The notes under the pieces: generated by a model | Database searches by the model: none | What the model was told of the DNA's origin: nothing | The model's input: the letters and a program-made list of their open reading frames with translations, nothing else | IMG/VR virus record: IMGVR_UViG_3300017963_000391 | Span: 1-43,667 of that record | DNA: 43,667 bases | Strand: one strand, 5' to 3' | DNA from: a virus | Shown: positions 1 through 21,077 of the stretch, piece after piece | Layout: each line of letters begins with the position of its first letter | Position numbering within the stretch: position 1 is the first letter of the stretch | Translations under genes and position numbers: made by a program

Positions 1-2
1 AG

Positions 3-1238
3 AACATCAAGACTAAATCTCCGTATATCTTTACCTACAAAGACGGTCGTAAGGTAATTAAAAATAAGTGGATCGACCACAAGGATACGAAGGTTATACG
101 GATGGTGTTCCGGGAGGTGCCTTACAAACTTGATGGCATGGGCTTTAAGCCGCTACCTAAAAGCAAGACTAAGAAACACACGGATGAGAAGCCGTTTTGG
201 GCTGTTGATAAGGGTACTCTCTCGCAGTTAAAGACTCATACCCATGCACAGAAGGCTGTTATTAAGCTGCTCCTTAAACGATCAGCAATATATAAGGTAC
301 GAACTACGTTTGCTAATGATGAGACAGGGACGGGCCTTAACAACAAGGTAGCGATGGACGGGAGGCTACACACCAACTACAATCAAACTGTTACGGCAAC
401 GGGTAGGCTATCAAGTTCAGATCCTAACAGCCAGAATCTACCAAGAGGTAACACAAGTCCAATTAAGCGGTGTATCATTCCGACACTCGATGGGATAATG
501 AACGCGGATCTTAGCCAGATTGAGTGGCGTGTACCAGCACAGCTAAGTCATGACCAAACTATGATCCACGAAATTAATAGTGGGATTGACCAGCACGTTA
601 AGGCTTGTACAGATCTTATGAAGCTACCGTTTATATCTAAATCGGATCCACATTCCAAGCGTAACAGGAATCACGCAAAGACGTTTAACTTTCGTATGAT
701 TTACGGTGGAACTGAATACGGATTCTTCAAAGATCCGAACATGCCGTCCTTCGATCTTAAGAAGTGGGGGCAAATTATCCGGTCCTTCTTTAAGAAATAT
801 GCTGGACTTGAGAGATGGCACAAGAGAAACATCAAGCACGTTATACAGGGCGATGGTACATTTGTGTTGCCTACTGGTAGACGCTTCCTATTTAAACCGA
901 CTGGTTGGGGAGGTAAGTATAATGAACGGGAGATTAAGAACTATCCGGTGCAAGGTATGGCAGGAGGTGACATCCTTCCGTTAGCCGCTGTAATTATACG
1001 AAAGAAAATGCGTCGCCGAAAATTTAAATCTAAAATGATTCTAACTGTGCACGATTCTATCGTGTTTGATTATCTTGAAAGCGAAAAGAACGACCTAGCC
1101 AAGCTTTGTTTACAAGTGTTTAGTGATTTACCTAAATACATTAGGCAATATTGGGGCATTAATTGGATCGTTAATTTAGAAGGTGAAACAGAAATAGGAG
1201 AAAATTATGGAAGTCAGACTGAATATCACCCGATATGA
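3..1238 (+). CDS. Family A DNA polymerase, C-terminal part (5' end outside window)
   Basis: This is the polymerase domain of a DNA polymerase I-type replicase. The reading frame is open from base 3, so the gene starts upstream; the first in-window Met is at 102. Counting from that Met, the motifs are: the conserved TGRLSSSDPNSQNLP segment (residues 100-114); motif A, ADLSQIEWR (135-143), with the metal-binding Asp; motif B on the O-helix, KTFNFRMIYG (193-202); and motif C, VHDSI (316-320). The residue equivalent to E. coli F762 is Phe, as in many virulent phages. Motif C reads HDS where most family members have HDE; the catalytic Asp is kept. The 3' end overlaps the next gene by 32 bases, which indicates one transcript. 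Identification is firm; whether an exonuclease domain precedes it cannot be seen. Confidence 0.95.
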   Translation, partial: NIKTKSPYIFTYKDGRKVIKNKWIDHKDTKVIRMVFREVPYKLDGMGFKPLPKSKTKKHTDEKPFWAVDKGTLSQLKTHTHAQKAVIKLLLKRSAIYKVRTTFANDETGTGLNNKVAMDGRLHTNYNQTVTATGRLSSSDPNSQNLPRGNTSPIKRCIIPTLDGIMNADLSQIEWRVPAQLSHDQTMIHEINSGIDQHVKACTDLMKLPFISKSDPHSKRNRNHAKTFNFRMIYGGTEYGFFKDPNMPSFDLKKWGQIIRSFFKKYAGLERWHKRNIKHVIQGDGTFVLPTGRRFLFKPTGWGGKYNEREIKNYPVQGMAGGDILPLAAVIIRKKMRRRKFKSKMILTVHDSIVFDYLESEKNDLAKLCLQVFSDLPKYIRQYWGINWIVNLEGETEIGENYGSQTEYHPI

Positions 1239-2717: not shown

Positions 2718-2791
2718 TGCGGGGTAGAGTAGTGGTTACTCATGAGTCTCATACGCTCACCACGCGGGTTCGAATCCCGCCCCCGCCTCCA
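2718..2791 (+). tRNA. tRNA with CAU anticodon (Met or Ile2), initiator-like features
   Basis: Cloverleaf: acceptor TGCGGGG/CCCCGCC, with a T1-C72 mismatch and six good pairs; D stem GAGT/ACTC; anticodon stem TGAGT/GCTCA around loop CTCATAC (anticodon CAT at 2750-2752); a four-base variable loop; T arm GCGGG-TTCGAAT-CCCGC; discriminator T; encoded CCA. The unpaired 1:72 position and A11:U24 pair resemble bacterial initiator tRNA, but the three consecutive G-C pairs typical of initiator anticodon stems are absent. It could be initiator Met, elongator Met, or lysidine-modified Ile (AUA). Confidence 0.88.
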
Positions 2792-4167: not shown

Positions 4168-4920
4168 TTGATTAGAACAGCACTAATATACGATGTCCAT
4201 TGTCCATTTCATAATAAGCCTGCGTATGAACTGGCGCTGGATTATCTCCTTAGTCTAAAGCCTCGCGTAAACCAAGTTATTCTTGGTGGAGACTTTGTAG
4301 ATTTTCACAAGATTTCTTTTTGGAAGAACGCAGTGCGAATGAGTTTCGAAGAAGAGGTTATGGAGTGTCGGCAAGAACTCAAGAAACTTAAGCAACGCTT
4401 CTATCGTCGAGACATTATTTATCTTGAGGGAAATCATGAACAAAGGCTACACAAATACAACATTGAAAAGAATGAAGACTTGGCATACCGAAATGGTATT
4501 CAAGATGTGCTTGGACTCAAGAAACGAAGAATTACTTATGTATCTAATATCGATCGGATGTGTGCCGGTAAAGCACCGTTGCGATTGGGCAAGCTTTATG
4601 TTCTACATGGACACGAGAAAAAAGTGTCCTTTGGGGCCATCAACCTCGCCCGCCTTTACTATACTCGATCTAAAACCAACGTCATCGCTGGACACCACCA
4701 TAAAAGTGATTACACCCTAGTAAAGAAACTTGATGGTAAACACGAAGGTGCGTGGACGGTAGGCACTCTAGGACAATTAAGTGAACCTTATCAACCTATC
4801 AATGATTGGAACTGGGGCTTTGCTTTTGTCGATCACGATGAAGTAACTGGTGATTTTGAAGTTCACAATAAAATTATTCTCCCTGCGAGTGATGGAAAGT
4901 TGAGGGTTGTAAATGGATAG
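4168..4920 (+). CDS. Calcineurin-like metallophosphoesterase
   Basis: A two-metal phosphoesterase of the calcineurin/Mre11-type fold, about 250 residues. The metal-binding motifs are in the expected order: D9-x-H11 (YDVHCP), GGDFVD with D42, GNHE with N89 and H90, H147 in LHGHE, and GHHH at 175-178. It begins at TTG 4168, just before the strand carrying the first metal ligands (MIRTALIYDVH). The ribosome-binding site is weak (AAGGGA). Substrate cannot be deduced; phage relatives include nucleotide phosphatases, 2'-3' cyclic phosphodiesterase-like enzymes and nucleases. It overlaps the sigma factor gene by eight bases, so the two are probably co-translated. Confidence 0.9.
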   Translation: MIRTALIYDVHCPFHNKPAYELALDYLLSLKPRVNQVILGGDFVDFHKISFWKNAVRMSFEEEVMECRQELKKLKQRFYRRDIIYLEGNHEQRLHKYNIEKNEDLAYRNGIQDVLGLKKRRITYVSNIDRMCAGKAPLRLGKLYVLHGHEKKVSFGAINLARLYYTRSKTNVIAGHHHKSDYTLVKKLDGKHEGAWTVGTLGQLSEPYQPINDWNWGFAFVDHDEVTGDFEVHNKIILPASDGKLRVVNG

Positions 4921-5686
4921 CTATCAGACGTACATGCGATCTATACAGAAGTACCCAACGTATTCGCACGCTAACAGCACACAGCATTACGAAACAATAG
5001 AGCAAGAGTATGATTCACTTATTCACGGTAATCTTAAACTAGTAGCTAAGATCGCCAGTGAGCATGCTAACTTGTGGCCTTCCTTTGATATTATGGATTT
5101 AATCCAAGAAGGTAACATGGCGTTAGTGAAATGTGTAAAGAGCTATAAGAAAGAGCGTGGTTCTTTCCCTACTTTTCTTGGCTTTTGTGTTCGTGTTGCT
5201 ATAATGCGTTACATTAAAGATAATACAGGGGCGCTGCGGCTCTATAAAACAAAGAGCCAACGTACTATCTTTAATAATCTAACTACTATCTATTCTAAGT
5301 ACAAGGAGTCTGGCTCATCACTATCGGAATTAGCTGATGAGTTCGATGTAACTGTACCTGATCTAGAACTTATCTTAGGAACATACAACCCAGTAGATAT
5401 TGAATCTATTAAGATAGATAGTCCTGAAGATAAGATGATTGTAGATGAAGACGTTATGGTAATACGTACCAGGATTAGTGATTTCAGGGATACACTAACA
5501 CGCGCGCAGAAGGAGGTGTTTGATAGAACTATGTATACTGGTACGGAATCCCTACAGTCATGTAGTGTTTCAATGGGTACAAGTAGGGCTGCAGTGTGGA
5601 ACATCAAAAGGCGTATCCTAAAGAAAGCTGTAGACTTCTTTACTACTGCTGACCTTAAGCGGATACAAACTGGGGAGGTAGACTAA
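4913..5686 (+). CDS. Phage-encoded sigma-70-family transcription factor
   Basis: This protein should bind host core RNA polymerase and redirect it to phage promoters. Region 2 spans about residues 33-104 and includes DLIQEGNMALVK (62-73), the hallmark core-binding helix, and SFPTFLGFCVRVAIMRYIKDN for regions 2.3/2.4 (-10 recognition). A region 3-like helix-turn-helix (SLSELADEFDV, 136-146) and a region 4-like one (about 195-241, ending AAVWNIKRRILKKA) follow. At 257 residues it is the size of alternative factors such as RpoH, and it lacks region 1.1. With no phage RNA polymerase in view, it is the best candidate for switching on the minus-strand late genes. The start overlaps the phosphoesterase; the end abuts the ATC-started nuclease gene. 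Confidence 0.88.
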   Translation: MDSYQTYMRSIQKYPTYSHANSTQHYETIEQEYDSLIHGNLKLVAKIASEHANLWPSFDIMDLIQEGNMALVKCVKSYKKERGSFPTFLGFCVRVAIMRYIKDNTGALRLYKTKSQRTIFNNLTTIYSKYKESGSSLSELADEFDVTVPDLELILGTYNPVDIESIKIDSPEDKMIVDEDVMVIRTRISDFRDTLTRAQKEVFDRTMYTGTESLQSCSVSMGTSRAAVWNIKRRILKKAVDFFTTADLKRIQTGEVD

Positions 5687-5688
5687 TC
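5672..5688 (+). promoter_or_regulatory. Ribosome-binding site with apparent ATC start codon
   Basis: GGGGAGGT at 5672-5679 is followed six bases later by ATC at 5686, which overlaps the sigma factor stop as TAATC. That is the position where a TAATG start-stop would be expected. The downstream frame is conserved-looking coding sequence without any ATG, GTG or TTG for 50 codons. Confidence 0.6.
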
Positions 5689-6567
5689 GACCAGATTGAA
5701 AAAGATATTCTAAAGTGGTATAACAATAATACATATAGTAGACTTGGTAATGATCTCAGTGTAACCGAGCTACTTCGTTCCCCAAGAATCAATCACCTAA
5801 CGAATCGTTATCGCAAGCGCGTAAATAAAGATAGCATGGATCAAATTATTGCCGCGCTTAAAGGTAACGGTGTTCACGATCAACTACAGAAATACCTTAG
5901 ACAAGAGAACCTTGTGTCTGGTAAGTGGATGATAGAAAGGAGGTTGTGTACTGTAATTGAAGGGCTTCGTGTTTCTGGTAGATTTGATGCTATGTACAAT
6001 ATGGAAGACCTGTACGATATTAAAACTACTAAGGTCTATAAGATTTTAAAAGGAGACTATAGCGAGTGGGAAGCGCAGCTAAACGCCTACGATTGGATGC
6101 TCTACAAAGATGGTATCGAGATCAAGAATTTAAAAATTTATGCTTCGATATCGGATTGGAACAGGGGAGATACATGGCAGTCGGGGTATCCAAAAAGTCA
6201 ACTCTTCACTATTACCATTCCAAGATGGGATAGGACTAAACAGGAGGCATGGATAACGGATAAAGTACGATTGTGGAAATCTACCCAGCACCTTCCGGAT
6301 GACAAGCTTCCTCTTTGTACTAAGGAAGAGCGATGGGCAAACGCTACCATCTATAAGCTATTTCGTACACCGTCATTAAAGAAAGCTAATAAGACCTTTC
6401 CTATTAAATCTAGGGCCGAGGCTTACATGAACGCGTGTAAGAAAAAGGAACCAGCTAAATGGAAAGACGCCCTCATTCGTGAAGAAACTGCAAACGAATG
6501 GCGTCGATGTGGATGGTGTGACGCTGCGGATTACTGCAATCAATTTCAACAGAAACTGGAACCGTAA
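5686..6567 (+). CDS. Cas4/RecB-like PD-(D/E)XK exonuclease, apparent ATC start
   Basis: A DNA exonuclease of the RecB/Cas4-like PD-(D/E)XK superfamily, likely acting in recombination or replication. Numbering from the ATC at 5686: LSVTELLRSPRINHL (about 25-39) matches the usual N-terminal segment, GNGVH gives His64, GRFD gives D101, and DIK gives D111 and K113. Cys211 (LPLCTKEERW) and the C-terminal Cys275, Cys278 and Cys284 form the four-cysteine pattern that holds an iron-sulfur cluster in Cas4 and AddB. The first ATG (5836) would delete the conserved N-terminal segment, so I extend to 5686, where the Shine-Dalgarno is ideally placed although the codon is ATC (ATT at 5695 is an alternative). 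No CRISPR array or cas1/cas2 is nearby. Confidence 0.85.
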   Translation: MDQIEKDILKWYNNNTYSRLGNDLSVTELLRSPRINHLTNRYRKRVNKDSMDQIIAALKGNGVHDQLQKYLRQENLVSGKWMIERRLCTVIEGLRVSGRFDAMYNMEDLYDIKTTKVYKILKGDYSEWEAQLNAYDWMLYKDGIEIKNLKIYASISDWNRGDTWQSGYPKSQLFTITIPRWDRTKQEAWITDKVRLWKSTQHLPDDKLPLCTKEERWANATIYKLFRTPSLKKANKTFPIKSRAEAYMNACKKKEPAKWKDALIREETANEWRRCGWCDAADYCNQFQQKLEP

Positions 6568-8570: not shown

Positions 8571-9194
8571 TTGATTAGACACTGTAAAGATATTGGGATG
8601 TTCGCCCTCGATAGGGGGCGTTCAACCTGTAAATTTTCGACTGAGTTCTGTTCCGAGAGGTGTTACAATAATAAATTCTATACCATGAATATCGGATTAG
8701 ATAAGCGAGATCACAAGAACGACGCTTATTGGGATGCCCTCACTTCTGAGCAATTTAAAAAGGAATTATATCGGAAACGGCTATCTACCAAAAGGTTCAG
8801 GTTCTGCACGAGAGGGGAACCGTTTAGTGTAAGTTCCGATGTGTTTCTTATCGCTGAGATTGCTAAGGCTTGCCCGCAGACAGACTTCTGGGCACCAACA
8901 AGAGCGTGGAGAAACAAAGCCCTCCGTAGTATCATTGAGTTCACCCTTTTCCGTATGCACAATGTATACATAACTGCATCTGTGGATCCTAGCAATACCC
9001 AAGAAGAAATAGATATGCTAGTAGATAGGGGGTGGTCAACTCACTTCTTTGGTAACGACGAACAATATCCGTTTGTTGTTCCTTCCAAAATTATTAAGTG
9101 TCCGTCTAAATGGCATCACAGCATTACGTGTGTGGATTGTAATGTTGCTTGCTTTAATAAACAACAAACCCATTCATGGTTAAAGGAGCACTAA
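8571..9194 (+). CDS. Gp88-like cysteine-rich phage protein, 207 aa
   Basis: The TTG at 8571 is preceded by GGGAGAG at six bases. An N-terminal cysteine cluster, TCKFSTEFCSERCY (about 19-32), and a second near the C-terminus (ITCVDCNVACF) suggest metal or cluster binding. The middle has an RFRFCTRGEPFS segment, a PQTDFWAPTRAWR segment and a NVYITASVDPS segment. This order resembles Gp88-type phage proteins, which look radical-SAM-like but have no established activity. That assignment is by motif resemblance only. It ends directly at the ribonucleotide reductase start, with the latter's AAAGGAG inside its last codons. Confidence 0.72.
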   Translation: MIRHCKDIGMFALDRGRSTCKFSTEFCSERCYNNKFYTMNIGLDKRDHKNDAYWDALTSEQFKKELYRKRLSTKRFRFCTRGEPFSVSSDVFLIAEIAKACPQTDFWAPTRAWRNKALRSIIEFTLFRMHNVYITASVDPSNTQEEIDMLVDRGWSTHFFGNDEQYPFVVPSKIIKCPSKWHHSITCVDCNVACFNKQQTHSWLKEH

Positions 9195-11993: not shown

Positions 11994-14900
11994 TTATTGT
12001 TCCCTTCCCTTGCGTATAAATTGAACGCCTCTAGATATTTCAGCATAGTATTTCATGGCACTATCCCACTGCTTAACACCACGTTCTGTGGACCACAGTT
12101 TCGCAAAGAAGAGTTGCCTGTGCGTTTCGTTTAGCGATGCACCTGGAGCTAGCTTCTCCCACTGGGCTCGAATCATGCGGTCGAAACTAACGTCCTTCAG
12201 TTGTTCAGAACTTAACAGAACATACTCAGCTAGATACTTAGAGAAAGCTTCCGCATCTCCATACCTCCAACCAAGGCCCATATTATAAAGAGCCGTTCCG
12301 GCCTCCGTTACCATGAACCCCTTGGTATCTAGCTTGTTCTCTTCCTGATAACGTGCAATTTCTTGTTGCACCGCTAACCACCCTAGCCTATCTTTATCAT
12401 CACTATACGCAAAGTTCTTTAGCACGGATTGTTTGAGCCACACAGGTTTCATAGGACGCCCAGTAGCTTTGTTATACATCGTTGTGGCCCACGGTCCTAC
12501 TTGATCTGCTATCCACTTACCGTAGTCCGTTATGGGTTGCCGATTGTAAATACTAGGGAACATCTTCTCGCCAAGGACAGCCTCAGTCGGAATCTTAATA
12601 GCCGGTCCAGCACTCTGAGCAACCTTATTTATAATTCGTTTCAGGTTCTCTTTACCGTAATCGTACTTACCGAATATCTTATAGATATCCTTCCTCTGTT
12701 GTTCCCAAGTCTTTTCTCCATACATTATCTTTGCGATGTCACGAACATCACTGGGAAGAGTTTCTATCCCTCCCCACTCAAGAAGATCACCGGCTACCCC
12801 GATACGAGGAAAGTAAAGGACTTGTGTATCCTCTCCACCCCACTTACCTAGAATGATGTGGCTTCTAGATCGCATCTCTTCGGGCAACCTATCTTCTTCG
12901 TCTTCGAAAAATGACTCATTCCATACTTGCATTAGCGCGCTAGCAAACATAAACTTCAGACCTAGCGCACCTAGTTTCAACGCTATGATCCCACCCTTAG
13001 CCCCTAGTTTTCTACCTATGTGCATCTTGATGTCATCATTATACAACGCGTTTCTAAACATCGTTTTAGAGCGGGTAAAGTTCACCTCTTGGAAACTCCA
13101 AAACGGAATTAGATATCTACGTAACCATTCACCACCCTGACTGATTCTATCGTAAGCACCAAGAAGATCGTTAGCCATAGTGAACGCACGTTCGTCCACA
13201 TCTTGTATAGCTTGTATCTCCTCGGGATACGACGCGTCATAGCTAAAAGGAAGTCCATTGTTCTGGTTCATTTCCTTTTTGTATCGCTTGAATGCCGCGT
13301 ACCTTAGAGTCCACTCACGTAGATCACTACCTGTTCTAGCAGCCTCAAAGTATCTATTAACCCACGAAATAGGGTTAGCACTAAAGCTAGACTTACCCAT
13401 CTGTTCCCTAAATTCGGGAGTGTTAACGGCCTCATAAATATCCTGCGCTTGGAAGGTACTTTGTATCCCACCTAGATCGAAGAATATCTTAAGGTCGCCA
13501 GTAGGTGCTTGCCCACTTTTACGCCACTGATATAGATCTCTAATGGCTTCTGGTACGTGCATAAATACCTTGGGATTACCCACAAAGATAGCCTCGGCAT
13601 CACCCGTTAAGTTTCGTAGGTTGTACTTAATGAAGCGGTGCGGAGCTAGTAACTGATAAGCTTTCCACCCCTTCTGGATAGTACTCATTAACTTACCTAA
13701 CGGAGTCTTAGCCTGATTATCCATGGCTGTTTCTAGCGTGTCGGCTAGTTTTTCAGGTAGATAGTATCCAGCATACTTACCACCAAATGCCAGAGCCTTA
13801 CCTATTTTTTCAGTAGGCACCTCCATTTTAGTTAGCCCCTTTTCAAAGGCTTTGTTAGCGATCCATCCCGGCACAGTGTGCGCCATATAGAATATGTTAT
13901 CTTCTCTATTTCTAAACAGCTTATAACCTTTTAGTGGATCCTCACTACCGTAATTTTCCATGACGTACTGCAGAGTATCAGCTATTTGCGTATCGTACAC
14001 CATCTGAGACATAACTTCGAACTCAGTTTGGATGTAGTTTAGACTAATAGGTAATCCCTTTTTATCGCCACGTTTCTTAAGGTGCGATCGACTAGTAGGA
14101 ACTGCCAATCCCTTTGATCCCTTAACGCCATGAAACCGTCTCTTGGCATCTAGGATGTCCATGACTTGGTGACGGAAATAGTAGGCTCGCTGTAGTCGGG
14201 CAGCTACATTAAACCCGACCGCAGACATGGAATCATTATAGGTCTTACGTAATTTAAACCAAGCGTTCTGCCTAGCCGTCCACGCTGTCCACAGTTTAGG
14301 GTCACTCTTCACAATATTAAAGACTGCGCCACACTCATCTAGGATTCTTTGATCAGACCACCCAAAAGGATTAGCGGGTAACTCATCTATATCTGCGCCC
14401 TTGGCTACCTTGTCTTGATTAATAAGAACTTGCTCGCGCATATCCATAAGGAACGCTAGGCTTTCTAAGTTCTTATATTGATCTCGATTAAGATCTCCAA
14501 TAACGTTATTAAGAATCTCCACGGCCTTCTGAGCCGCCATCTGTTGGCCCTTACGTAACTGCCGCAGTTTAGATTGCACATCTCCGTACTCAGCACGTTT
14601 AAGGTGCTCGAATTCCCGTACCTGTGCTACTAAATGTTTACCAGCCTCCATGATTTTCTCGACAACAGTAGGTGCGTGTACACCCTCTCGATACTTATCG
14701 ACATCCTCTTGCATTTGTGGATCACTAAAGCGGTGTTCCTTAGACGCAAAGTAATCTTCAAGAGAATCAAGAGCATCGTTGGGATCAACGTCTCCTTCTT
14801 CTTGTTCCAGTTGCTCTTCCATTTCCGCAAACGCGTCTCTCCACCTGTCAACAGTCTCCGCAGGATCTGCGGCTTCCTGAGGTGAAACCAGAAGATCATC

Positions 14901-17900
14901 CTCTAACACTATACCATTAGAGATCTTTTGAGCTAGTTCTTCAAATAGAGTCGGCGTAAGTTCGTGAGTTTCTAACTTAGTTCGATCCCCATAGTGCATG
15001 TGATGACCGAATACCTCAACAGTCCGTCCAGATTGTAGAATACTTAAATCATAATAGTATTCCCCATCAGCTTCAGACTGATACAGAAACTGATCATTCC
15101 CTTCTATGAGATACGCACGTTGTCCAGGCCTACTCTTAGCCGCAATAACTTCGTTCGCAATAGTTTGTTGGGCCTTTTCTAGAGTCAACTGTTCTAGTAG
15201 GGGCGAGTCATAATCATCATACTCACTCGTCCTAGACTCGTTCACCCTCTCGATATCTTCATCTGTAATAACGGGATCAGGTTCAACTAGAAAAAATCCA
15301 TCTTCATTTACTGCACGCTTCCATCCTAATACCTTAGCCATTCTCTTCGATTGGTTATCGTATAATCTCGTCTTTTTATTATCACCGGGAGTCGTAAGGA
15401 AATGGATGACGTGCGGCTTTCGAGCTTTAAGATTCTCCTCTATGACTTGTCTTGTTAGTAGTTCTTTAATCTTATTGAATGCACCAATAGCTAGACTAAA
15501 CGTCTTCTTGGTATCCTTTTTAGATTTTCCAGTATCATCTAAGTCACGATCATATGTAGGTTTTCCTCCCTTTTCCGCATAGGTCCACGATACGATAGTC
15601 TTCTTGGCACCCAAGGGAACTGTAACACTGGGACTGCCAGGATTCTCGATAGTTTGTCCATGACTTCCAACGTGTTCCAATTTTACAGCGACCTGATTAA
15701 GTTCCTCATCAGGAATGCTTTCGATGTACGTAACATTGGATCCATCATCTAGTGCTCCCCATTGTACGGGCGCAGCTTGACGGTCCTCTTTGGTGTAGAG
15801 GGTATTTATTTGTTCGAACTTCTTTTCGATCGTAGAAGGTTCAAGATTCTCAACAGCAAATGTACTTCTAAATGCCGGATGATTCCTGTCAGCGATCGTA
15901 AACATATAACCAGACGGTACATAACCTTCATCCCTAGAGTGGTACGCATCAAAGGTTACCTTAACGGGAAACAGATCATTCATACGTTTCTGAATGGTGT
16001 TATCTGCACCTAGAGGAGGAGCTTGGAAAGACTCCTCAGTATCTATCGACATCGCACGCGCCATGTTTTCTAGCGACGTGTTATATTCTTCATCCGTAAT
16101 AGCATTAAAGGTTTTCGCTTGTAGCAGTACCTTAGAGTATCGTTCATCAACCATCTCTGTAGAGATAGGTACATTGTTAGCGAGAGCTTTATCGATCTCT
16201 GCATTCATAGCGTCGAATAGGCGCTTAGCTTCTTCGGGACTTTCAGCAACAGCCCACGCTTCCTCATCACCTACACCTTTTTGAGCTTGGTCAGCTTCTA
16301 CTTCGGTGGGTGTAGGAATACGTTGAACTTTAACCTCGGGTGTAAAGACAGCGTCCCGCTGCATAGTACCAAACTTCTGTGCCGTAACTTCTTTAGCGTA
16401 AACATTACCAAGTAGCAGAATAGGCATGGAGGTTTCCCCATCCTTAACGTGCGTAGCTGCTCTGTGTCGCCCATCATGCGCTGTAACTGTACCATCCTTA
16501 CCAATAACTAGTAAGGGCGCACCACTAGTGTCCAACTCGCGCTGGTTAATAGTATCAGGACTAGTCTCGAGTATTGTCTTAAGACGCCTATCGGATCCAG
16601 TAGTTAGTTGCAAATAAAGAGCGGGGCTAATATCTACCTCACGATATTTAGTATCCCTGTCAACGCCAGCTTCATCCATGGCGCTTTCTATTTGTGCAGC
16701 ACTAAAGGTTTGTGTAGGCTTTAACTCAGCCTTAGGAGCAGTCGCTGGTGCTGCTTTAGTTTCTGCCTTCTCCGTGGTGAATCCCAACTGCGCAGCTAGT
16801 TTAGCACGAGCAGTCTCACTTATTAGAGGAACCTCACCACTCCACTTATAGAAGTCTTCACCTATAAGATTAACTATTTGCGTCTTGTGAAATTCAACCG
16901 CTTCATAAGGAGCGTTCATTTTCCGTAGACGTTTATATTCACGCTTAAAGAAAGCTAGTTGTTGGGCCTTAGTAGTACCGGCCTGTTTCTTCATAGCTCT
17001 CTCGGCCTTCGCTTGTTTACGTTTCTGGCGAATAGCGCGGGTCTCTTGGATAGTCTCGATGGTGTTTTTACGGACTTGCCAATAGACAAGTTGGTCACTA
17101 GTCTTGTGACCCAGTTGTGTCAGTCTATCTATTTCAGCATCAGCCTTATCGAGTTCCTTTTGTAGGGCTGCCGGAGTCCTATGTACAAGACCCTCTACAG
17201 CGTTACGTGTATTCCAACGACCACGTTTAGCCCCCTTTTCAGCTAGAGCCATACGTTCGAGGTTACGCTTAGCCCTAGCGCTAGCCTCTTGGTTAGGTTC
17301 TCTATCATCTGCCCACTTATCTACAGGAGCTACACCACCACGTTCTTCTTTACGTCGCGCCAATAAGTCTATATCGGCTTTAGATAGGTGCCTCTTTTTA
17401 GAGGCTTGTTGCTGTTCTTCAACAGCCAGTGTATCCGTTACGGTAGTGGGTACGTTCGGAAAACTTAGCTTATCCTTCGCAATCTCCCCAACATACTTCT
17501 TGTGCACATCAAGGACATCATCCATTACAGACCGGGATACACCCAGTACATTTTCAAGCATCTCGGCCAGCACTTCCATAACACGGCCGAGTACAGTTTT
17601 AGATTCGTGCTTAGTTCCGTCAGCTTTACGGGAAGGTATCTGACTAAGCATCTCAGCAACGTGAGGGGAACTAAGGGCCATAGCCATAAGTTCATCCCAC
17701 ATCTTAGAATCTTCAGGCGCACCTTTTAAAGCCGCAAAAAGATTATGAAGCTCAGCACGCCGAGTCTTTTCGTAGTTAGGCAAGGTGTTAAAATACTCTA
17801 CCACCTCAGGGATCTTCTGTAAGTACGCTTCGTACTCTATTACTAGCTCTTGAAACGGGGCCATATCCCTAGCATTTATACTCTTCCAGATCTTACTAAG

Positions 17901-20900
17901 ATCCTTGGCATACGCTTTGTATTTTGTAGAGTTAAGTTTTCCAATAGCCATAGAGTGCAACGCGTGTACAAGTTCGTGCACCATGGTAACTTCCGGAGAA
18001 CTCATCTCATCGAACTCGCCATAATGATAACCTAGATCAAGAGACAAGATGTGTCGAGAGATATCACCATTAGCCTGATATTTCGTACGTAATAGTCCAC
18101 GAGATAAATCGTCGTGATGTTTGATTCCAACCCTAAGCTCGAGGTCGGGGCTATTAGCAGCCACCCGATCAAAGAGCTCTTGGAATGCCCACGTACCATT
18201 GGCAATCTCTTGCTCCATTCTGTCAACGTCTTGACGCAGATATGCATACCGATTGTGCTGCTCTTCGGCTACGTTCTGCGGATCCGGAATGATCCTTAGG
18301 TCCGCGTTCTTAGAATTTTCGAGATTGTGTAGTCGATTCTCTCTGTTACCTACGCGCGTAAAGATAAGACCACCACGCATAGCTTGTTCTTTAGTTAGCT
18401 TTTGGCCCTTGGGTTGACGAAGATTAGTATAGCGTACTCTGTCCGGACGTACATCTTTATTCGGGTCGTCCGGTATATCAACGTTACGCTGTTGATTACT
18501 AATCACTAGACCTTCCGGAGTATATAGCTCTCCTATTGTACCAGGAGCGGGTCCAGGAGTCATGGCCTTAACAAATTCCGCACTCTCTTTATCCATACGC
18601 GCCAGTTCTTTCTTGCGGCGCTTAAGAAAAGCAAGGCGTTGTTTCTGAGGCTTATTCAGTTTCTCTAGTGATTCAAACTTAGCGATAAGGTCGTCTACCG
18701 CTTGTACATTTACATCCAGACCACTTTCTTTCCAGTACTTAATGGTCTGTTTCTTCCAAGCCATGTCCGCTAGTTTCTCTTTAGCGGTCGCTGGTTCGCT
18801 CTTCTTTTTGGGAGCAGCTTCCGGTATAGCTTCGGCTACTTGCTCTTCAGGAGCGGCTTCTGCGGCAGCTTCTTGTTTGGCTTTGGCGGTTGCTTCTTCC
18901 TCTCCAACTTTAAATTCCGCATCATATCGAGCTTGCTCTTTCTCGGCGTGCTCTTCTAGTGTCAATGTTTGTGCGAATACAGGATCATTAACGACACGTT
19001 TAGTATCGGCGATACCTTCGCGCGCTTTAGTAATCGTATCTAAAGTTGCCTGAATTCTTTTGTTATCCGGAGCTTGCTCTAGTTGTTTCTTAAGTTCCTC
19101 TTCAGTTTTATCTAGACTAGCTAGCTCTTTATCTAGGTTCATATTGAGTTCGCGTTGGGCCTTCTTACGCGAGCTAGTTTCTTTGGCACCTCTAGCTAGA
19201 GTCACAGCACCACCCATAAGGGGGAACGCAGCAGCCACTAGACCTTCATAAGCGCCTTGCTCACTGATCTCAATGAACTTATCAGCGTACTCTTGAAGTA
19301 GCTTTTCTTGACCGGCCGTTGGATTCTTAGCCCACAAAGCGGTAAGAGCATCAGGATGGGCCTGCAGAAACTCCGTACCAAACTCAGTACCCATAGCTAC
19401 GGCTACCTTACGAGCAGCGTGAATAAACCCACGTCGAACTTGGAACAGCTTTAGCATCGGTGTAAGACCAAGTTGCTCCATGGGAGCTTGTGTGATCATG
19501 TTCCAAAGACCAGCGGTCATAGCTGTATCTTCATCCACACCCTCTTCAACAAGACGTGTGAAGGTAGAACCAGCAATCATAGATCCGATAGCTGCAGTAC
19601 TAGCTGCTGGACCACCCACAGCAGTAGCTGTCACTGCCATAAAGATTTGCGGGGTCATTTGAATAACGTCTTCAAAGAAGCCAGCGGTAGTCGTATATCT
19701 AGGATCTTCTTTAAGAGCTCTGTTAGTTGTTGCTGTTACATCTTTTAGATGGGCCTCTCTATCCAGAGAGTCTTGGTATCGTCGGGACGCACGTAACCAT
19801 CCCATCTCTTGACGAGTAGCTGGTCTACCAGCCTGCTGTTCAAAATATGCTAGGTCTTCTTTGAATACACTTACCGGACCAAAGGGTTTATCACGATAAG
19901 ATTTTAATTTGATTGGATCCAGTCCTGCTTCCCTAAGTCCGTTTAGCTCTTGCTGTTGGAGATTACGTTCGAAGAACGCCCCTGCTTGCATGGCACCAGC
20001 AACTACATCTTTTCGAAGAGACTTCCAACCTTCTTTAAGTACGGGTAGAATACGATCAACACTATACTGGGCGCTAGGTCCCTTCATGTGTCCCGGCATT
20101 ACTGGAGCTACGGGATTAATAGGCAACGCATCAGGGCCTTGCTTAACTTCGTAAGTACGTAGAGCTTGTGTAAAGATCTCTTTGTTGATTTGGTATTGAG
20201 CTAGGTCTTCGTTATATTCGCTCTCCTGTCTAGCACGATCAAATTCCCGTTCCTGTTGGCGCATCCTATCTGTGATCATCTTGTGTTCGGCGCTAGTTAC
20301 AGCTTCGAGCAAACGGTTCACCACTCCGTCTCGATGGGCATCACTGTATGCTCTACCGACAGTCTCATTAATAACAGATAGTTTAGCGTTACGTTGTTCC
20401 TCAGGAGCCATATCTTGGTACTCGCGACTACGAAGTAGGTCGCTCATACTAGTTTTGTATTGGTCACTGTAGGGATTGATAGGTTGTTTAGGAGCGTAGG
20501 GCTCCGAAAAGAATCGTTGAACCTTGGTTACGTAGTTCTTTGTTTCTTCGAAGGGCACCTTTCCATTATACTTATCCACGTTACCGGGACCAGCATTATA
20601 GGCTTGGAGAGCTTTGTTCATATCACCATCGTATCTATCTAGCATCTTGCGAAGATACTTAGCTCCACCATCGATGTTTTGGGCGGGATCGAACGGGTCT
20701 GTTACTCCCATCTCCTTGGCAGTCTCGGGCATAAGTTGCATTAATCCCTGCGCGCCCACGGGAGATTGGGCCTTCGGATCGAAGTTAGACTCCGTTTGTA
20801 TTACACTCTTAATGAGACGCGGATCCAGATCGTACTTAACCGCAGCATTAGAGATGTGTGTATCAATAGTAGGCGGACCTTGTACAGGTTTCTCGCCTTC

Positions 20901-21077
20901 TTTAAGGGAGTAAGGGTTCTCGTAATCAATAAACCTCGAGCTCACCACCCCCATGGTTTCAGCTACTTCTGCTGTAGTGTATTTAGGAAAATGAGTTTTC
21001 TGTAGAGACTGTACAATCTCATCATCACTGTATTTATTGAACTGGGGATATGTACTACGGAACGCTTTTATATCCAT
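11994..21077 (-). CDS. Giant internal virion protein (3,027 aa): lytic transglycosylase, zincin-like, ParB-like and polyvalent domains
   Basis: Probably an ejected core protein that digests the cell wall and conditions the host during DNA entry. Domains: an SLT lytic transglycosylase at about 72-195 (catalytic E96 in [15 protein letters not shown] 108-117, AYNAGPGNV 159-167); two helical hydrophobic stretches at about 470-640; a long Lys/Glu/Ala coiled coil (about 640-870); a zincin metallopeptidase motif HELVH (1034-1038); a ParB-like segment with DGRHR (1535-1539, domain about 1480-1560); a phage module near 1880-1930 (KPHVIHFL to GFFLVEP); and a C-terminal region around 2470-2900 ([12 protein letters not shown]) like the LPD38 part of polyvalent proteins. 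This layout recalls DarB-type proteins. The gene is 9.1 kb, a fifth of the window. ATG start two bases downstream of the 426-residue gene. Confidence 0.9.

Follow-up and report, generated by a model that had tools for sequence, protein, structure and literature searches.

A probable ATC start, overlapping a sigma factor stop codon, in a phage Cas4/RecB-like exonuclease gene, and a second case in the same family

Where does a phage exonuclease begin if its reading frame looks coding for 50 codons before the first ATG and offers neither GTG nor TTG on the way? This question is raised by an early gene of the window, i.e. of the complete 43,667-base IMG/VR record that was analyzed here. The exonuclease frame (5659-6567, plus strand) opens after the TAA at 5656-5658 and closes with a stop codon that ends at 6567. 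Inspection of the sequence places its first in-frame ATG at 5836, with 59 open codons before it, 50 of which lie between the ATC at 5686 and this ATG. The relevant features are the following.

4913..5686, plus strand: phage RNA polymerase sigma factor, sigma-70 region 2 (Pfam Sigma70_r2, E 1.3e-10; phrog_351, E 7.6e-26)
5659..5835, plus strand: open stretch before the first ATG, with the family N-terminal block NNNTYSRLGNDLSVTELLRSPRINHL...KD from 5704 on (HMM match, E 5.6e-11)
5672..5679, plus strand: Shine-Dalgarno (SD) site GGGGAGGT, 6 nt before ATC (duplex energy -12.6 kcal/mol)
5686..5688, plus strand: proposed exonuclease start codon ATC, the only near-cognate codon properly spaced from the SD
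5686..6567, plus strand: Cas4/RecB-like PD-(D/E)XK exonuclease, 293 aa from ATC (phrog_2139, E 5.7e-42; AlphaFold2 pLDDT 93.5)
5836..5838, plus strand: first in-frame ATG, an internal Met 51 and not the start, after the SVTELL helix and Asp 49 and with no clear SD upstream

The openness of 50 codons is by itself weak evidence, as we estimate that it would arise by chance in about 9% of cases. The translation of 5659-5835 alone matches an HMM of the family N-terminus, built from the first 62 residues of 79 homologues with the window left out, at E 5.6e-11, while of some 1,100 further open pieces of the window the best unrelated one reached 0.23. The aligned part starts at 5704, six codons past ATC 5686, and the N-terminal block holds a Thr (27) and an Asp (49) that are near-invariant in a 64-sequence alignment. 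Judged from its sequence, the stretch 5' of Met 5836 is coding, and since it carries the family N-terminal block, the protein cannot begin at 5836. The original prediction, which had described 50 coding-like codons without GTG or TTG before this ATG and had placed the N-terminal block of the family within them, is borne out by the sequence and by the HMM match. The AlphaFold2 model of the whole protein has helices at residues 26-30, 33-41 and 50-78, with confident helices throughout the region 26-78, and its best PDB match in Foldseek is SSO0001 (4ic1; E 4.5e-8; TM 0.45 by query length and 0.62 by target length), a Cas4 nuclease that is also found by sequence with an alignment profile (E 8.6e-4). 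The conserved block, the predicted helices and the match to 4ic1 together imply that a start at 5836 would remove a conserved part of the fold. One could argue that translation nevertheless begins at Met 5836, which is the first canonical start and the choice of standard gene callers, and that the upstream homology is a relic, as the catalytic residues all lie downstream of this Met. Such a protein, however, would be without Asp 49 and the conserved SVTELL helix, conservation of the upstream block is strong, no clear SD precedes 5836, and a look for homologues that begin at this position, which had been proposed as a check, found none among 133 frames. We therefore regard this explanation as very improbable.

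In itself, the gene product is unremarkable, a Cas4/RecB-like phage exonuclease of phrog_2139 that matches no Pfam family at E 0.001 or better. With its phrog_2139 relatives and with Cas4-like nucleases such as 4ic1 it shares the fold, the catalytic motifs and the C-terminal Cys cluster. The PD-(D/E)XK motifs are present (the His in GxxxH, the Asp, D-x-K, and Q-x-x-x-Y as QLNAY), and in the 64 sequences G60, H64, D101, D111, K113 and Q131 are invariant. C211 is likewise invariant and C275, C278 and C284 are at least 90% conserved, a set that is consistent with a putative Fe-S cluster. Differences to the phrog_2139 relatives are the low identity (at most 33% to any relative found), the absence of the N-terminal pentapeptide MK[I/L]TN, and the ATC start.

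The start codons of the family were surveyed in 133 homologous frames from IMG/VR, GTDB genomes and named phages. ATG (107), TTG (10) or GTG (9) serve as starts in 126 of them, all no more than six codons away from a single alignment column, which is the Met of MK[I/L]TN...LP. Four frames are cut by contig ends, and the exceptions are the window and two frames termed L104 and L025. Canonical starts thus occur in 98% of the scorable homologues, and two probable ATC starts stand among about 129 scorable frames. A search of about 1,170 GTDB genomes gave further homologues, every one with a canonical start. In L025 (1797-1995), the open frame runs well upstream of the family start and there is no ATG, GTG or TTG near the usual position; as a third ATC-like case it was rejected, the frame having an N-terminal extension and no ATH at the family start. 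Besides the window, only L104 among the 133 frames has neither a canonical start nor such an extension. The window has TGG 5671 at the family start column, and ATC 5686 lies five codons downstream, so that an ATC-initiated protein would be five residues shorter and lack MK[I/L]TN; without this start peptide, its N-terminus is not fully family-like.

ATC 5686 lies at the gene junction. The SD GGGGAGGT sits within the last codons of the sigma factor gene, a spacer of 6 nt (5680-5685) separates it from the ATC, and the sigma TAA (5684-5686) shares its A with this codon, which results in a TAATC junction with a one-base overlap. This is the arrangement that had originally been described, an ideal SD six bases before ATC 5686, and the sequence agrees with it. 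The alternative near-cognate codon, ATT 5695, is 15 nt away from the SD. Among the listed starts of its own genome, the SD is the second strongest. Strong SD-like hexamers are frequent within the genes of this phage, about 20 of them near an ATH or CTG codon, and what makes this pair of SD and ATC informative is solely that it stands in frame and no more than five codons from the family start column. RNA structure near the start showed nothing unusual (z -0.76 and +0.62).

Given the -1 offset of the exonuclease frame relative to the sigma frame and the presence of an SD-like element, it could also be imagined that the two proteins are made as a fusion by -1 frameshifting within the 28-nt overlap, with the SD acting as stimulator. 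We rejected this candidate for want of a slippery site, as the sigma frame contains no X_XXY_YYZ heptamer through the overlap (5640-5686); in addition, the spacing of SD and ATC suits initiation, and a sigma factor homologue was found at none of the fetched homologue loci. A fusion is thus extremely unlikely.

As regards other starts in this genome, early genes on the plus strand often begin with TTG (4168, 7462, 8571, 9195) or GTG (2813, 3314), and for the late genes on the minus strand all listed starts are ATG. A second odd start that had been considered, at TTG 8556, was rejected, as the canonical TTG at 8571 has its own SD. The minus-strand region 11994-21077 encodes a single protein of 3,027 aa whose N-terminal part, when the translation is read by eye, resembles a lytic transglycosylase, and which is probably a virion-internal protein.

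The second ATC case, L104 (IMGVR_UViG_3300005235_000134), is a separate contig, and its exonuclease is about 30% identical to that of the window. Its start reads ...CAACAGAAAGGAGGTGCCCA-ATC-AAG-ATA-ACA-AAC..., i.e. [M]KITN, with the ATC (1980-1982) exactly at the family start column. The frame opens just ten codons upstream of this ATC, the first canonical start is TTG 2073 within the SVTDL block, and the SD AAGGAGGTG is a perfect match of 9 nt. With the window it has in common the ATC start, an SD of top strength, and a start that falls within the 3' end of the upstream gene; it differs in that the ATC lies at the family column with MKITN kept, in that the upstream gene is a different one, and in the length of the overlap, which is 10 nt compared with 1 in the window. 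In a tree of 123 sequences, L104 clusters with the ATG-starting frames L012 and L080 (support 0.93), apart from the window, and the two ATC starts are therefore separate events. The exonuclease of vir555, whose host is given as Methanomicrobiales, is 41% identical to that of L104 and starts with ATG.

The strength of the SDs, taken as duplex energy with the anti-SD, was compared over 113 distinct homologous initiation regions. L104 ranks first (-12.9 kcal/mol) and the window second (-12.6 kcal/mol), and the ATG starts have a median of -7.3 and a best value of -12.1 kcal/mol. The chance of two random regions taking both top ranks is 1.6e-4, a value that is optimistic because the window was noticed partly for its SD and its start was chosen partly by SD spacing, and the comparison is based on only two ATC cases. 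L104 is free of both selection biases and by itself ranks first of the 113 regions. With the cruder measure of a contiguous match of at least 6 nt in both, the joint chance is 0.033. Base-calling errors would not be expected to produce ATC codons with top SDs, but such a pattern should arise if a weak start codon can persist only when its SD makes up for it.

This bears directly on the possibility of an assembly or sequencing error, which had originally been named as the main rival, namely that the true codon at 5686 is ATG and that one consensus base, at 5688, is wrong. TAATG is the usual junction form, 98% of the scorable homologues have canonical starts, and the contig is metagenome-derived with no near relative found that could be consulted. 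Scans of IMG/VR with protein patterns of the exonuclease, sigma factor, RNR and DNA polymerase yielded no close relatives of the early region, nor did the DNA pattern of the junction or blastn of phage records, and with the terminase two kin contigs were obtained, L102 (about 77% nucleotide identity) and L103, which cover late genes only. The DNA polymerase of the window, a family A enzyme (1-1238, plus strand) that is cut by the left end of the contig, is nearest to those of Methylophilales phages, HMO-2011 and a Manatee Spring metagenomic phage (about 32-36% identity). Against an error speaks that a homologue on a different contig likewise has ATC at the family start, that errors should not land on the two strongest SDs of 113, and that the main genes of the 43.7 kb were not seen to contain a frameshift or an interruption. 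L104 and the SD ranks thus greatly weaken the error explanation, which for the window itself is unlikely.

It may further be asked whether the ATC is a recent start codon mutation, i.e. a variant within the population that reduces the expression of the exonuclease, or ends it, and has not been selected. Such a variant would be present in the DNA and yet be without consequence. Against this speak the intact frame, catalytic residues (H64, D101, D111, K113, Q131) and four Cys residues, the strong SD, and the second ATC case, which is just as intact. That no orthologue with a conserved ATC was found and that MKITN is also absent from the window protein would agree with such a mutation, which we nonetheless consider quite improbable.

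The best explanation, to which we assign a probability of roughly 0.78, is genuine initiation at AUC 5686, helped by a near-maximal SD and by coupling to the sigma factor gene, with a low yield of the nuclease. A rare ATH start at a coupled junction had been suggested from the window, and this idea gains support from the ATC of L104 and from the top two SDs of 113. As an unrelated virus carries this rare arrangement in the corresponding gene, the ATC start is probably a real means to limit the amount of the enzyme rather than an error of sequencing. Mechanistically, we infer that ribosomes that end the sigma cistron at the UAA (5684-5686) would be held by GGGGAGGU in the last sigma codons and would reinitiate with fMet-tRNA on the overlapping AUC, while fresh ribosomes could also bind the strong SD directly. 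AUC pairs with the CAU anticodon at the first two positions only, which is disfavored by IF3, and inefficient initiation is expected from this two-position pairing; the near-maximal SD might partly offset the weak codon. In this way, only a little of a potentially self-harmful DNA exonuclease would be made, coupled to sigma, and harm from such an enzyme is easy to imagine as the reason for a low dose. A low, IF3-sensitive expression is plausible, but the suggestion that the gene regulates itself in an IF3-sensitive manner finds no support for a nuclease, and an autoregulation of the infC type has left no sign in the window exonuclease.

A wider idea is that AUC together with a maximal SD is a recurrent, independently evolved dose control of phage recombination exonucleases, perhaps helped by the phage's own CAU tRNA, and that such starts have been overlooked because gene callers disallow ATC; this we regard as tentative and rather doubtful. 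The tRNA with a CAU anticodon (2718-2791, plus strand) shows two features typical of initiator tRNAs, a U-C mismatch at 1:72 and an A11:U24 pair, but the three G-C pairs of the anticodon stem are missing and its discriminator is U73; it could be an initiator-like or a degenerate tRNA.

Natural AUC starts are hardly documented in phages, and in the literature searched, which was covered in part, none was found. An AUC start has reportedly been described for an IF3 gene of Myxococcus. Near-cognate AUH starts as such are already known, and what is added are two independent ATC examples in one phage exonuclease family. Standard gene callers would shorten such genes, and both the window and L104 would lose the conserved N-terminal block. 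The coincidence of ATC with the strongest SDs of the family leads to a simple testable rule, in which weakness of the start codon is traded against SD strength.

AUU starts are found in infC and pcnB of E. coli and in cvfC1 of S. aureus, and AUA starts in infC and ccpN of S. aureus (PMC13009471). The S. aureus AUU and AUA starts give about 10% of AUG expression, and up to 30% in case of ccpN in rich medium; extended SDs are present at the non-canonical starts of infC, cvfC1 and ccpN, and in the studied AUU/AUA genes the start codon limits the protein yield (PMC13009471). From these yields and the disfavoring by IF3, a low exonuclease output that is tied to sigma factor translation would be expected. 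The window exonuclease gene has in common with infC, pcnB, ccpN and cvfC1 a near-cognate AUH codon, a strong or extended SD, and the absence of a canonical alternative, and it differs from them in that its putative start codon is AUC and in that it encodes a phage nuclease and overlaps a sigma factor gene.
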